From Enterococcus florum (GTDB lineage: Bacteria; Bacillota; Bacilli; Lactobacillales; Enterococcaceae), in NCBI RefSeq assembly GCF_004309355.1, contig NZ_BJCC01000009.1, positions 124,001-188,000 of the forward strand: a stretch of DNA of 64,000 bases, in the 5' to 3' direction. The position numbers and the translations under genes are program-made. Positions 5,190 through 10,336 of this stretch are shown piece by piece. The notes under the pieces were generated by a model. That model was given only the letters and a program-made list of their open reading frames with translations, was not told where the DNA came from and did no database searches. The stretch's first letter is position 1; each line of letters starts with the position of its first letter.

Positions 5190-6134
5190 ATGGATTATCG
5201 CGTTTTATTGTACTATTTATATACACCCATCGAAGATCCTGAGGCCTTTGCGAAGGAGCATCTGACTTTCTGTGCCTCTTTGGATTTAAGAGGACGGATA
5301 CTGGTAGCTACAGAAGGGATCAACGGCACGTTATCTGGGACCATAGAAGCCACCGAACGTTACATGGAACAGATGCGTCAGGATCCTCGATTTAAAGATA
5401 TCTATTTTAAATTTGATGAGAGTCAGGGACATGCATTTAAGAAATTGTTTGTCCGACCAAGAAAAGAGCTGGTTTCATTAAACCTGGAAGATGACATCGA
5501 TCCTTTAAAAACAACTGGCGAGTACTTATCTCCTGAGGCTTTTCGAACGGCTTTATTGGATGAAGAGACTGTAGTGATCGATGCTAGAAATGATTATGAA
5601 TACGATTTGGGGCATTTTCGGGGAGCAATTCGTCCGGAGATCCACAGCTTTCGAGAATTGCCTGCTTGGATTCGGGAAAACAAGGAGCGATTGATGGCTA
5701 AAAAAATCGTGACCTATTGTACCGGAGGCATCCGCTGCGAGAAATTCTCCGGCTGGTTGATTCGTGAAGGGTTTGAAGGGGTCGGACAATTGCATGGGGG
5801 AATCACGGCCTATGGAAAAGATCCAGAAACTCAAGGGGAGCTATGGGACGGAAAAATGTATGTTTTTGATGAACGGATCAGTGTGGAAATCAATCAAGTC
5901 GACAAACAGGTCATTGGGAAAGAATGGTTTGATGGAAGTCCTTGCGAACGCTATATCAATTGCAGCAACCCAGAATGCAATCGTCAAATGCTGGTTTCAG
6001 AAGAAAATGAAGCAAGATATCTTGGCGCTTGTTCGGTAGAATGTGCTGGACACGCTAAGAATCGTTACGTAATGGCTCAAGGTATGATAGAGGAAGAGAA
6101 GCAGCAGCGTTTGGCTGAACTAGAACCAAGATAA
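5190..6134 (+). CDS. trhO: tRNA uridine(34) hydroxylase, rhodanese family
   Basis: TrhO (YceA family) makes 5-hydroxyuridine at the wobble position of certain tRNAs, feeding methoxy- or carboxymethoxyuridine formation. I place the start at 5190, where GAAGGAGGAG lies eight bases upstream; the same frame is open further upstream but without a site. The 314-residue protein has the N-terminal acylphosphatase-like domain (EGINGTLSG near 42-50), a rhodanese domain with active-site loop CTGGIRCEK at 177-185 (Cys177), and a C-terminal Cys-rich segment ([10 protein letters not shown]). All fit the family. Monocistronic, between two strong terminators. Confidence 0.93.
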
Positions 6135-6140
6135 AATGGA

Positions 6141-6176
6141 AAGAGGTTATGACACACTGTCATAGCCTCTTTAAAA
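6141..6176 (+). terminator. intrinsic terminator after trhO
   Basis: Arms AAGAGGTTATGACA (6141-6154) and TGTCATAGCCTCTT (6159-6172), with A/T run. The stem sequence recurs, nearly identical, after RNase J2 at 48301-48330. Confidence 0.85.
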
Positions 6177-6690
6177 ACTTAAAAAACCTTTTGCAAGATC
6201 CTTTTCAGGTCCTTTGAACGAATCGCATTTTCCTGAGAAAAAGCAAAAACACTGAAACAGTGTAAGCTGAAGGCGCGTATGTTGTCTGCAAGGTCATTCC
6301 CATGAAAAAGGGTCGTTCGTTTTCAACCTCGATCACCGAAAAGAGGCCTCGTTGAGAGAATAAATTAAGTCAACGAAGCAGTTGCGCGCGACAAACGGAT
6401 CGTCAATACTATAAATCCGCAAATGAATCCCCTCCTCTCCCAATAATAAGCTATAAATAGTATTCAAAATAATAAGGAAAATGTGAAATTTTAAATAAAA
6501 TTAATGCTAAAAAACTTTTGGTCGCAGATTTGATGCTATACTTTTCAATAAGTGACAACTTTTACATTTATTTGCATATCTAGTAAGAAAATCAGCATCT
6601 AGCATCTAATCGTAGTTTCTTGGTAAAAATAGTTAAAAGCCCTTTTTTAGTCGAAAAATCCGCAAAAAATCGATCGGAGGTAGTTATCAA
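6173..6690. other. long non-coding stretch upstream of broken regulator
   Basis: About 520 bases without a credible gene. The first half is of average composition with no recognisable coding remnant (a small CACTG/CAGTG hairpin near 6253-6265 is the only structure seen). The second half, from about 6440, is very AT-rich and ends in an extended -10 promoter (6534-6542). It looks like a regulatory upstream region rather than coding DNA. Confidence 0.5.
6534..6542 (+). promoter_or_regulatory. extended -10 promoter element
   Basis: TGCTATACT is a good TGnTATAAT-type extended -10; upstream TTTTGG is a weak -35. It would give a leader of about 210 bases before the regulator at 6761, containing the small ORF at 6691. 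Confidence 0.45.
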
Positions 6691-6741
6691 ATGATAACAA
6701 CCGTTATAAAATGCGGAAACACTCAAAAATCAGCTATCTAA
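6691..6741 (+). CDS. possible 16-residue leader peptide
   Basis: A short frame with its own CGGAGG site ten bases upstream encodes MITTVIKCGNTQKSAI and stops 19 bases before the ATG of the next gene, which has another GGAGG. Position and spacing resemble a leader ORF of the regulator at 6761, but the sequence has no known stalling or attenuation signature and the downstream gene is itself broken. Treated as tentative. Confidence 0.3.
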   Translation: MITTVIKCGNTQKSAI

Positions 6742-6760
6742 AAAAATCGGAGGGACCGCC

Positions 6761-7443
6761 ATGACACGTATTTTAGTACTAACAAAAAATATTCTTTTTG
6801 AAGAAGCCTTTATCCGAAAGCTGCAATCGTTGGATTATGAGGTACTATGTTCGGCAAGCGTGACTCAGGAAATCAGCGACTTGAACAGTGAATCTGGCAT
6901 TTTGGCATTATTCTCGATCGTGTTCATTAGTGAAAGTTTCTCAAGTGAAGAGACCAAGCGAATTCTTTCCGCTCCTAGTTTGCAGGACAAGATCCTCTTT
7001 CGTAAAGTGGATGCTTCATTGGCGGATGATGAAAAGCAACTGTTCTCGAATGATGATATCTATGATTGGGTGTTTAGAGAAATCTCAATCGAGGAGCTGC
7101 GCGAGAAATTGTCAAGAGCTGTACTGCGCAAGACAGAAAAAAGTGAAAAGCATTTCTCTAGCTATTCAAATTTTCCAATCGGCAATCAGCTGGGGATCAA
7201 ACAGATTTAGTATGCCTTAACGAAAAGGAATTGCTGCTCCATTTTCAATGGAGAGAAACGATGGACGAGGTGATTTCATACGAAGTCCTTTGCCAGTCTC
7301 TTTAAAAAGAGGTCACGCCATCAAGAAAGTCGCAATTGTCAGTGATTTTGCGGAATTTGCACCTAAAAGTAATTGCCGAAAGCGATGAAAAAGAGACCGT
7401 CGAGACTGCCGGGCACAAAGGATGTGAGCAGGTGAAGGTCTAA
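6761..7443 (+). pseudogene. broken response-regulator-like gene (receiver plus winged helix)
   Basis: Paralogue of the intact regulator at 8410-9087. The intact reading frame covers 6761-7210 (149 codons): TRILVLTKNILFEEAFIRKL aligns with NRLLLLTKNILAEQEIVHRL, and the shared ISIEELREKL lies near residue 110. This part lacks a DNA-binding domain. Yet in another frame, from about 7201 to 7443, the lost winged helix is still readable: LNEKELLL, YEVLCQSL, then TPSRKSQLSVILRNLHLK, collinear without gaps with LSNNEFKV, REELCELIW, TQSRMVQLSSIVKNIRLK of the paralogue and ending at the same place. Two lesions separate them: a frameshift near 7205-7212 and a TAA (7303-7305) where the paralogue has Trp. 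The receiver-only product could still be made, as ATCGGAGG precedes the ATG. Confidence 0.75.
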
Positions 7444-7456
7444 AAAAACGGTCAAG

Positions 7457-7514
7457 TGTCTTGACAGGAAGACAGACTTCTACTACACTTAATGCTATTC
7501 AACGTGTCTTGACA
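7457..7514 (+). promoter_or_regulatory. promoter with two NiaR-like operator palindromes
   Basis: Two exact copies of TGTCTTGACA, at 7457-7466 and 7505-7514, 48 bp apart. The first contains the -35 TTGACA (7461-7466), followed after 17 bases by -10 TACACT (7484-7489); the second lies just after the expected start point near 7496. This is a textbook repressor layout. The TGTC-N2-GACA core matches my memory of the NiaR (YrxA) operator that controls niacin uptake and NAD synthesis in Firmicutes; identity of the regulator is inference. Confidence 0.7.
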
Positions 7515-7563
7515 GGTTAGGGGGAACCTGTTTAGTCATGAGTGGATGATGAAGGAGGATATT

Positions 7564-8175
7564 ATGAAAAACAATTCTGTCAAACATTTGACGATCTCTG
7601 CTTTGCTTATTGGCTTGGGTGTGCTGATTCCAATGATCATGCCGAGAGTCACTATCCCACCGGCTTCCTTTACCTTAGCGAGCCATGTACCCGTTTTTAT
7701 CGCTATGTTTTTCTCACCGGCAATGGCGATCGCTGTTGTTTTGGGGACTGCATTTGGATTTTTTATTTCTACTTCACCAATCATTGCATTACGGGCACTG
7801 TCGCATATCGTCTTTGCTGTCGTTGGGGCCAGCTATTTGCAAAAGCACCCCGAGATCGTTTTCAAAAATGGACAATTTACATTGGCAAATGGCCGTTTCC
7901 AATTGTTCAACGTGTTGATCGGCGTGCTGCACTCTGCACTCGAAATGATCGTTGTCAGTGTGTTCTATTTTATGGGGAATATGCCAGAGACTTATTATTC
8001 GCAGGGCTATCTGTATACGGTCTTCATTTTGATGGGGATCGGCGGCCTGATTCATAGCATCGTTGACTACAACATTGCTTATTTTGTTGCAGGATCGCTT
8101 TACAAACACTTCAATCTGCCAATTTTTGACAAAGCCAAACAACAGGTAAAAGCTTTGAAGAAAATGATGGTTTAG
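7564..8175 (+). CDS. ECF transporter S component, probably niacin (NiaX-like)
   Basis: A 203-residue, five- to six-helix membrane protein with the look of an S (substrate-binding) component of an energy-coupling factor vitamin transporter; it would dock to the shared EcfA-A'-T module encoded elsewhere. Visible features are an N-terminal first helix LTISALLIGLGVLIPMIMP, the conserved ASFTLASHVPVFIAMFFSP, and a basic C-terminal tail. The ATG at 7564 follows AAGGAGG by six bases. The two TGTCTTGACA palindromes in its promoter suggest control by NiaR and therefore niacin as substrate. Other vitamins or thiamine-like compounds are not excluded. Single-gene unit ended by a terminator. Confidence 0.65.
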   Translation: MKNNSVKHLTISALLIGLGVLIPMIMPRVTIPPASFTLASHVPVFIAMFFSPAMAIAVVLGTAFGFFISTSPIIALRALSHIVFAVVGASYLQKHPEIVFKNGQFTLANGRFQLFNVLIGVLHSALEMIVVSVFYFMGNMPETYYSQGYLYTVFILMGIGGLIHSIVDYNIAYFVAGSLYKHFNLPIFDKAKQQVKALKKMMV

Positions 8176-8180
8176 ACACG

Positions 8181-8206
8181 GACACGCTTCGTGTCTTTTT
8201 TTTTTG
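8181..8206 (+). terminator. intrinsic terminator after ECF S component
   Basis: Stem GACACG (8181-8186), loop CTT, CGTGTC (8190-8195), followed by about ten T. Confidence 0.8.
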
Positions 8207-8409
8207 AAAAAAATCAAAATTTGTTTCTATTTTATTAGAAAAAAATTAAAAAACGTTGAAGAATCAAAAGATGAGCCCGTGGTAATAATTATTCTAAAAG
8301 GGGCGTTATTTTTCTAATATCAAAGGTTCTATCGATTAATATTTATTTTATATGTATAGTGAAAGAAACGAATAGCTGTATAAAAAGTAAAATAATTGAG
8401 GTGAGAATA

Positions 8410-9087
8410 ATGAACAGATTGTTACTTTTAACAAAAAATATTTTAGCTGAGCAAGAAATCGTCCATCGTTTACAATGTCTGAATTACGAAGTGTTTTGTT
8501 CTGCCACGACGTTGGAATTGATCAATCATGTGGAATCAACAAAAGAGGTACTGCAGCTTTTCCCAATGATCATTTTCAGTGAGACTATCTCTTCTGCGGA
8601 AGTGAATCAAATCCTGCCAAAATTGATCCAAGATGAAAAGATCATCTTCCGAAAAGTTGACACCGTTCTTTCGGAAAACGAACAATGCGGTATGGAAGGC
8701 GCTGGAATCTTGGATTGGTTCCATTCCAATGCGTCCATCGAAGAACTAAGAGAGAAGATTCCGACAACAGTCGAGAAGTATCCATACATTTTTTCTGCGG
8801 ATGAGGGTGTTTATGATATTCACTCTGAAAAGGCCAAAATCGAAAGCATGATCGCCTCTTTATCGAATAATGAATTTAAAGTTTTCCAGAAGCTGAGACA
8901 GGAATATGGAACAATCGTTTCCCGTGAAGAATTGTGCGAGCTGATTTGGGGAGAATTGACCCAATCACGAATGGTGCAGTTGTCATCGATCGTAAAAAAT
9001 ATTCGTCTGAAGTTGGAAGTCGCTGGAAATGAAGGAGAAGTCATTAAGACTGTTTGGCGCAGAGGATACAAGTTAAGGGGATTATAA
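8410..9087 (+). CDS. atypical response regulator with winged-helix DNA-binding domain
   Basis: A 225-residue transcription factor. Residues 1-125 look like a receiver domain that has lost its phosphorylation site: the acidic pair after strand 1 is replaced by LLLLTKN, and strand 3 reads FPMIIFSET with no Asp. Residues 145-225 are an OmpR/PhoB-type winged helix (LSNNEFKVFQKL, REELCELIW, SIVKNIRLKLE, VWRRGYKL). It should bind DNA without classical phosphorylation. I chose the ATG at 8410 because GAGGTGAG lies six bases upstream; no nearby histidine kinase exists. Its closest relative in the window is the broken copy at 6761. Targets unknown. Confidence 0.75.
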   Translation: MNRLLLLTKNILAEQEIVHRLQCLNYEVFCSATTLELINHVESTKEVLQLFPMIIFSETISSAEVNQILPKLIQDEKIIFRKVDTVLSENEQCGMEGAGILDWFHSNASIEELREKIPTTVEKYPYIFSADEGVYDIHSEKAKIESMIASLSNNEFKVFQKLRQEYGTIVSREELCELIWGELTQSRMVQLSSIVKNIRLKLEVAGNEGEVIKTVWRRGYKLRGL

Positions 9088-9105
9088 GTTCAATAAGCGA
9101 TGAAG

Positions 9106-9139
9106 AAGACAGCTGATTATTAGAGGCTGTCTTTTTTTT
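9106..9139 (+). terminator. intrinsic terminator
   Basis: Arms AAGACAGC (9106-9113) and GCTGTCTT (9126-9133), then a run of T. Confidence 0.8.
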
Positions 9140-9153
9140 CGTGGACATGTTCA

Positions 9154-9162
9154 TGCTATAAT
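9154..9162 (+). promoter_or_regulatory. extended -10 promoter of GH3 lipoprotein gene
   Basis: TGCTATAAT is a perfect extended -10. Transcription would begin near 9169, leaving a very short leader and supporting a start codon at 9182 or 9188. Confidence 0.6.
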
Positions 9163-9187
9163 CGAATTGGGGAAAGAAGGGATGAAC

Positions 9188-10336
9188 GTGAAAAAACGAA
9201 TACTTGGCTTGCTGATTATCGGCGTCCTGTTGCTGTTGGGAGGCTGCAGCGGGAATCAACCAGAACAAACGACGGAGGAAAGCAGCAAGACGAAAGCAAG
9301 TACCACAGAATCTAACAAAGATGAGAGATCCGAGATGGAAAAAAGAATAGAAGATATCATGCAAAGCATGTCGCTGGAAGAAAAGGTCGGGCAGTTGTTT
9401 TTAGTTCGCGTGCCTTTGAAAAATCAAGTAACCGATATTCAGAACTATCATTTAGGCGGCTATCTGCTGTTTGATCGCGACATGCAAGGGGAGAATCGGG
9501 ATAGCTTGAAGGCTAAGATCGAGAACTATCAGGAAGCTAGTAAAATCCCACTATTGATTGGATCTGATGAGGAAGGCGGAACAGTCTCTCGTTTGAGTCG
9601 TAATCAATTGGTCTCACCGCCTTTTGCCAGTCCTCAACAGGTCTATCAGGCGGGCGGTTGGGCAGCGATCACTGAGGATATTGATCATAAGGCCGCCACT
9701 TTTCATGAGCTGGGGATTCAGCTGGGGATGTTTCCAGACGCAGATGTTTCGACGGATCCTGCCTCGTTCATCCACGATCGTACGATCGGAATGGATGCGA
9801 AGGGAACGAGTAAGTTTGTGCAGCGCAGTGTGACAGAAATGAAGAAACAAAAAATCGGCTCGACTTTAAAACATTTTCCTGGCTACGGAGACAACCGTGA
9901 TTCACATGTTGAGATCGTAACGGATGATCGGCCGTTGGCGAAGCTTCAACAGAATGATTTCTTGCCTTTCAAAGCAGGAATCAAAGCAGGAGCGGATAGT
10001 GTCATGGTGTCTCATAACATAATTTCTGCCATCGATGATCAAAATCCTGCGTCGATCTCACCAGCCGTTCATAAAGTGCTCCGCAAGGATTTAGGCTTTG
10101 ACGGAGTCGTGATGACGGATGATATGGATATGGCAGGATTGGCAGATTTTATTTCTCAGCAGAAGGCTGGTCTGCAGGCATTGAAAGCAGGCAATGATCT
10201 GATTCTATCGTCCAGCTATGCGCAGCAAATCCCTTATATTCTGCAGGCGATCCAACAAGGAGACTATTCAGAAAAACAAGTCGATCGTTCTGTTGAACGC
10301 GTATTGCGCTGGAAGATCGAATTAGGTTTACTATAA
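9188..10336 (+). CDS. GH3 beta-N-acetylhexosaminidase (NagZ-like) lipoprotein
   Basis: Surface lipoprotein predicted to remove N-acetylglucosamine from muropeptides or other glycans. From the GTG at 9188 (AGAAGG seven bases upstream; the ATG at 9182 is too close to it) the product has 382 residues: signal peptide with lipobox LLGGC (Cys20), a Glu/Lys/Thr-rich linker, then the GH3 barrel with GSDEEGGTVSR near 125, the NagZ signature KHFPGYGDNRDSH near 228-240 (its His is the usual acid/base), and nucleophile Asp in MTDDMDM near 309-315. NagZ of Gram-negatives is cytosolic; Gram-positive members are exported, as here. Alone between a promoter and a terminator. Confidence 0.88.
   Translation: MKKRILGLLIIGVLLLLGGCSGNQPEQTTEESSKTKASTTESNKDERSEMEKRIEDIMQSMSLEEKVGQLFLVRVPLKNQVTDIQNYHLGGYLLFDRDMQGENRDSLKAKIENYQEASKIPLLIGSDEEGGTVSRLSRNQLVSPPFASPQQVYQAGGWAAITEDIDHKAATFHELGIQLGMFPDADVSTDPASFIHDRTIGMDAKGTSKFVQRSVTEMKKQKIGSTLKHFPGYGDNRDSHVEIVTDDRPLAKLQQNDFLPFKAGIKAGADSVMVSHNIISAIDDQNPASISPAVHKVLRKDLGFDGVVMTDDMDMAGLADFISQQKAGLQALKAGNDLILSSSYAQQIPYILQAIQQGDYSEKQVDRSVERVLRWKIELGLL

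Follow-up and report, generated by a model that had tools for sequence, protein, structure and literature searches.

The 64,000-nucleotide stretch of Enterococcus florum DNA analysed here (the window) raises the question of whether a regulator gene that has lost its DNA-binding domain is simply a dead duplicate or has been kept as a shorter protein. The gene, here called regT, is an intact open reading frame (ORF) of 149 codons (6761–7210; the genes, relic and promoter described lie on the forward strand) that encodes a pseudo-receiver domain, the N-domain, followed by a short tail, as judged from the ORF list, a search with its paralogue and a structure model. A ribosome-binding-like GGAGGG, picked out by eye at 6749–6754, ends 6 bases 5′ of the regT ATG. 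The intact paralogue, RegP (8410–9087), is a protein of 225 aa in which the ORF list, Pfam and an AlphaFold model together point to a pseudo-receiver joined to a winged-helix DNA-binding domain (wHTH) of the Trans_reg_C class.

The whole genome, a 4.0 Mb draft in 73 contigs, was searched with RegP. The search recovered the regT N-domain (RegP residues 1–121, 43% identity, E 2.7e-24) and, beyond the end of the ORF, a match to RegP residues 147–220 at C9 131204–131425 (window 7204–7425; 30% identity, E 9.2e-6) with one TAA inside. By homology and gap-free alignment to the wHTH of RegP, this match belongs to a relic of a Trans_reg_C-type domain that spans 7171–7443, is read in the frame of 7171 (the −1 frame relative to the N-domain ORF), and runs to a terminal TAA at 7441–7443. 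The first-pass annotation had claimed just this, namely that beyond 7210 the lost DNA-binding domain can still be read in another frame, gap-free against the paralogue at 8410 and through its natural stop, and the search bears it out. The internal TAA (7303–7305) falls on RegP codon 180, a TGG, and tryptophan occupies this position in 22/22 members in the alignment of 22 family members on which invariance was scored, so that the proposed Trp-to-stop change also stands. The ORF frame closes at TAG 7208–7210 and the relic frame is bounded upstream by TAG 7159–7161, with an unconserved linker between them; the frame change can therefore be placed only within 7162–7210. A single frame change, as originally proposed, is upheld, although its assignment to 7205–7212 is too precise, since any site in the interval would serve. 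The entire span, 6761–7443, comprises 683 bases, consistent with the suggested original gene of 227 codons. Between them, the frame change and the TAA deprive regT of a C-terminal Trans_reg_C wHTH in the same frame.

The label "receiver", which the earlier reading had given to the surviving product, agrees with the predicted fold and must be qualified on two other counts. The AlphaFold models have mean pLDDT values of 82.6 (RegP) and 82.3 (RegT; model m5f4f25aa89ef). The best Foldseek match of the modelled RegT N-domain is 3crn (E 1.7e-5), and VIA-align superposes the predicted model on 4dn6_B and 3crn_A with Z 14.2 and rmsd 2.4–2.5 over 119–124 residues, at an identity to solved receivers of only about 7–20%. 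Pfam recognises no receiver domain in RegP or RegT and returns no hit in the regT ORF; in RegP it does find the wHTH (PF00486, E 2.6e-15). NCBIfam yields for RegP response-regulator models only, all far under their cut-offs, with NblR spanning residues 5–223 weakly. Moreover, the acidic pair and the phospho-acceptor aspartate of OmpR/PhoB response regulators are missing from both proteins: residues 8–10 are T-K-N where the acidic pair is expected, and residues 57–58, after strand β3, are S-E; which residue stands exactly at the phospho-acceptor site we infer from the model. The same residues prevail among 110 family members (T in 107, K in 83, N in 102, S in 93 and E in 99). A receiver fold without the phosphorylation residues makes this domain a pseudo-receiver.

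RegT shares the characteristic N-domain positions of the family (TKN...L-N-YEV...E58...LRE), keeping 25 of 32 conserved positions. An N-domain profile, which was built with RegT included and is thus not counted as evidence for its membership, matches 43 of the 105 genomes of the taxonomic family, presumably Enterococcaceae, and leaves 62 without a match. This genome has 13 profile matches, regT among them, and the search with RegP yields 11 further full-length paralogues. Two relatives (G004 and G013) have 40 and 41 family matches; the profile count is 39 in each, equal to the 39 candidates scored per genome. Among the matches listed, all others lie in open frames of at least 216 codons (at least 225 in the profile list), and regT, with an open frame of 166 codons, is the only short one; a long open frame is by itself no proof of a wHTH in these matches. 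A limited literature search found no paper describing the RegP family by title or abstract. Seven paralogues in this genome (L003, L004, L005, L006, L007, L011 and L012) adjoin genes for surface proteins. Among ten neighbouring proteins chosen from loci L003–L012, eight have a Pfam match, among them an LPXTG anchor, a sortase with a SpaA-fold protein, pilin D1, an Ig-like domain, List_Bact_rpt and NlpC/P60, together with a weak camelysin-like match. This proximity to surface-protein genes suggests that the paralogues locally control cell-surface operons. Two short contigs, C40 and C41, carry two closely similar regulator genes (L009 and L010), each next to a large secreted-protein gene that is likewise closely similar, the result either of a duplication of recent date or of a locus split in the assembly.

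Among the genomes compared, the position of regT is peculiar to this one. Upstream of the gap in which it lies is a gene that we take to be trhO, and downstream is the gene for the substrate-binding subunit of an ECF transporter (7564–8175, alternative start 7546; assigned from the ORF list and the boxes described below), presumably NiaX-like. The transporter protein is closest to those of Enterococcus sp. 669A, Enterococcus sp. 665A and E. pallens (84–87% identity among named records). In 18 of 19 relatives in the genus trhO directly adjoins the transporter gene, with a regulator between them in none of the 18; the nineteenth (L053) has a different gene in the gap, without a regulator match. 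A RegP counterpart follows the transporter 3′ in 16 of the 19 stretches fetched; the remaining three are L050, where the stretch ends before the RegP position, and L053 and L060, which have no RegP counterpart there. A second count over 51 named loci, drawn largely from the same genomes, gives the same picture: trhO lies beside the transporter gene in 17, a regulator lies between them in 0/17, and a RegP counterpart is present in 15/17. The gap between the two genes measures 113–137 bases, including the first transporter codons, in the 13 of these 17 loci that were compared, versus about 1.4 kb here. When 6135–8400 was compared with 20 genus genomes, only the transporter region was matched in 19 relatives. 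Six peptide patterns, used to look for a regT orthologue in named genomes, matched 186 stretches, 0 of which were confirmed, in a collection from which near-identical records may be omitted; regT is known in one genome only. Some 570 bases (6187–6760) without a long ORF precede regT, and this segment has no match at E 0.001 elsewhere in its own genome or in 19 relatives (best other E 0.0045, 20 genus genomes). Rfam has no match in 6100–9200 at E up to 1.

The transporter gene has kept its own promoter. A −35/−10-like pair (7461–7489) is combined with two TGTCTTGACA boxes at 7457–7466 and 7505–7514, the whole occupying 7457–7514, and by eye the arrangement of boxes and promoter is the same in 13/13 relatives compared. 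According to PMC5343564, the nadC operator of Streptococcus pneumoniae, which is of the NiaR type, contains TGTCTTGACA. Neither Pfam nor NCBIfam has a match for the subunit encoded at 7564–8175, and niacin is its probable substrate because NiaR-type boxes precede the gene here and in the 13 relatives. With both boxes intact 3′ of the relic, regT thus sits upstream of a preserved niacin-type promoter.

A tree in which RegT was represented by its N-domain only, and from which own_L010 and five long-branch rows were omitted, groups RegT with its own RegP (support 90/82, not starred) within a transporter-linked clade (97/94, starred); in a tree of the N-domain alone that included more long-branch rows, the placement of RegT is unsupported. 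In the wHTH tree RegT again joins its own RegP (96/65). By this placement, regT seems to have arisen from the RegP gene by a lineage-specific duplication. The relic is marginally nearer to some orthologues (0.35) than to its own RegP (0.29), and recombination with a distant paralogue as the source of the wHTH was rejected, the relic being closest to the transporter-linked clade. Among plasmids, 6187–7450 has no DNA match, and the N-domain finds three records, all from E. raffinosus, at 29% identity, so that these do not represent regT carried on a plasmid.

The two halves of regT have diverged very differently from the rest of the family. Measured against 41 intact members, the relic comes last in mean wHTH identity, at 0.264 (next lowest 0.322), whereas the N-domain, at 0.347, is mid-range, with 26 of the 41 lower. 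The set was then enlarged to 110 members, with 60 stretches taken as the best-ranked among the N-domain profile matches listed; 109 were compared, L136_64 being dropped for coverage. None of the 109 intact members has a wHTH as low as the relic by identity or BLOSUM (0.74 for the relic versus 1.15 to 1.27 for the lowest intact members), and N-domains as low as or lower than that of RegT occur in 22/109 by identity and 15/109 by BLOSUM. These ranks are not independent trials, because the family members are related. In separate trees of the two domains, from which the near-duplicate own_L010 was omitted, the wHTH end branch of RegT measures 3.12 and exceeds every other in the 41 rows (next 1.96); its N-domain end branch is 1.34, with 11 rows exceeding 1.5. 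The path from RegP to its E. pallens orthologue is 2.23 for the N-domain and 0.59 for the wHTH, so that the wHTH ordinarily evolves more slowly than the N-domain, and a uniform decay should not give it the longer branch.

Direct comparison with RegP leads in the same direction. Over the wHTH, RegT shares 22/76 residues with RegP, and the orthologue from E. pallens shares 49/76 (p 2e-5); over the N-domain the figures are 51/120 and 58/120 (p 0.44). The identities of the two RegT domains to RegP, set directly against each other, differ only weakly (one-sided p 0.038). Differences between RegT and RegP at codon positions 1, 2 and 3 are 0.51, 0.31 and 0.68 in the N-domain, resembling intact pairs, and 0.54, 0.43 and 0.59 in the relic, where RegP and its E. 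pallens orthologue give 0.24, 0.20 and 0.55; the measure is weak alone, since the wHTH of an intact pair, RegP and L003, comes near the relic values (0.42, 0.38 and 0.58). GC by codon position was uninformative for regT. The losses in the relic strike the core and the wing of the domain: it keeps 15 of 26 conserved wHTH positions (the lowest other member keeps 65%) and replaces the invariant Trp180, Trp216 and Tyr220 of RegP by a stop, Gly and Cys.

The N-domain has not gone unscathed. It keeps 78% of the conserved positions, where the median member keeps 85%, it ranks within the lowest fifth when 109 members are compared, and its branch is longer than that of RegP (1.34 versus 0.88, and 1.82 versus 0.70 in the other tree); by these sequence measures its constraint is partly relaxed. 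Nevertheless, only the wHTH has fallen below the range of the intact members, and hence selection apparently still acted on the N-domain of regT after it had ceased to act on the DNA-binding domain. The first-pass annotation had offered two readings, that the gene decayed recently or that a receiver-only product was selected, which might dimerise with the intact paralogue and inhibit it; the asymmetry speaks for selection on the N-domain at some time, and the simulations described below speak against uniform decay of the whole gene.

Any account of regT has to accommodate its lesions, the relic, its relationship to the RegP clade and the asymmetric decay, all of which are observed. The account towards which we lean, on these sequence comparisons, is that regT is a kept truncated pseudo-receiver that acts by protein contact. 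The regP gene would have been duplicated, probably in this Enterococcus lineage, the copy coming to lie in the gap next to trhO, ahead of the transporter gene. The winged-helix half of the copy would then have escaped purifying selection, gained the frame change and the stop, and become the relic, while the pseudo-receiver half stayed under somewhat relaxed selection as the 149-codon ORF with its ribosome-binding-like site. Without a wHTH, the product cannot bind DNA in that manner, and protein contact is therefore its most likely mode of action: it may pair with a family member, RegP being the obvious candidate, or alternatively titrate a putative ligand or partner of the pseudo-receiver. On this account the 149-aa protein would be produced and would be under selection to the present day, with a partner and an effect that are presumed. 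Against the account stand the α4 part of the expected dimer face, which is not retained, and the family matches listed, which include no other short member and so offer no precedent for truncation. A narrower form of the account, in which regT is a stand-alone pseudo-receiver that serves as a decoy dimer partner and in this way governs RegP or further proteins of the expanded family, is a tentative and rather doubtful proposal. The dimer face as a whole has no special retention and speaks neither for nor against RegP as the partner (matches between RegT and RegP number 8/13 in α5, 3/8 in β5 and 2/15 in α4). Strand β4 of RegT matches RegP at 7/8 positions, better than in any of the 109 others.

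Possible, and clearly short of probable, is a two-step history in which the wHTH of a full-length duplicate first diverged, under relaxed or adaptive change, and a frame change and stop then left the whole gene dead, too recently for the N-domain to have decayed. The occurrence in a single genome, the mild acceleration of the N-domain and the existence of intact members with rather divergent wHTH domains all fit such a history, as does the expectation that duplicated regulators of an expanded family are often lost. Against it, the BLOSUM score of the relic is well under that of the lowest intact member, and the losses in core and wing resemble decay rather than re-specification; this history, too, requires that selection maintained the N-domain when it no longer maintained DNA binding. 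Far less credible is a uniform decay of the whole gene since one inactivating event, recent or old, even though there are two lesions and both lie at or past the linker. Neutral decay was simulated, with substitutions only, from 16 of the 41 intact members in 60 runs each: in none of the 960 runs did the N-domain remain at the RegT score once the wHTH had fallen to the RegT score, and the 120 N-domain columns stayed free of stops in 26 runs. The order of branch lengths is likewise the reverse of that expected. That the gene is truly intact and was broken by a sequencing or assembly error is most improbable, for although the genome is a draft in many contigs, two separate errors would be needed, one alone would leave the other lesion, and the degraded wHTH residues would go unexplained. 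Programmed frameshifting that joins both halves is the least believable of all: the relic does lie in the −1 frame, but a shift within 7162–7210 would add only about 31 to 47 codons before the TAA at 7303, the relic is degraded, and no convincing slippery heptamer was seen by eye in that interval.

A kept, truncated pseudo-receiver would have parallels elsewhere. As a decoy, regT would correspond in bacteria to the microProteins of eukaryotes. Among bacterial cases, trlR is a frameshifted gene, and WhiI is a regulator of the NarL/FixJ type. TrlR, from the octopine-type Ti plasmid of Agrobacterium, is, like RegT, probably a regulator duplicate without a DNA-binding domain, and regT is likewise such a duplicate of an intact regulator in the same genome. 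According to PMC3907764, TrlR is a relative of TraR without the DNA-binding domain and blocks TraR through inactive dimers. The two systems are unrelated, TrlR being of the LuxR quorum-sensing type, and the inhibition shown for TrlR is conjecture for RegT. WhiI, an atypical response regulator of Streptomyces, is reported to form no homodimers and to regulate genes as heterodimers with BldM (PMC12632262); unlike regT, it does not figure in that source as a truncated duplicate. ChxR, RitR and HP1043, pseudo-receiver or aspartate-less regulators of the OmpR/PhoB type, resemble the RegP family in combining a receiver fold that lacks the phosphorylation residues with an OmpR-type wHTH; they differ in that RegT has no working wHTH and that neither RegP nor RegT has a Pfam receiver match. 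By the accounts in PMC3960148 and PMC4395418, respectively, ChxR neither dimerises nor binds DNA in dependence on phosphorylation, being able to do both without it, and RitR, structures of which are among the structural matches of our model, dimerises through α4-β5; dimers observed for pseudo-receivers (PsR) mostly use α4-β5-α5 (PMC12632262). Single-domain response regulators such as DivK and CheY share with RegT a stand-alone receiver fold, and their structures match its model, but RegT lacks the phosphorylation residues and derives from a two-domain regulator.

Truncated duplicates of regulators are already known, and the new point here is the asymmetry between the two halves of regT. If regT is dead, the locus records an ordinary loss of a duplicate. 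If the N-domain has been kept by selection, regT would be a regulator caught in transition to a protein that works through partners only, its discarded domain being readable to this day, and, should the decoy reading be true, the direction of evolution could be read from the relic still attached to it. A kept N-domain would also provide a handle on what the pseudo-receiver does without DNA binding in a large enterococcal family of regulators.
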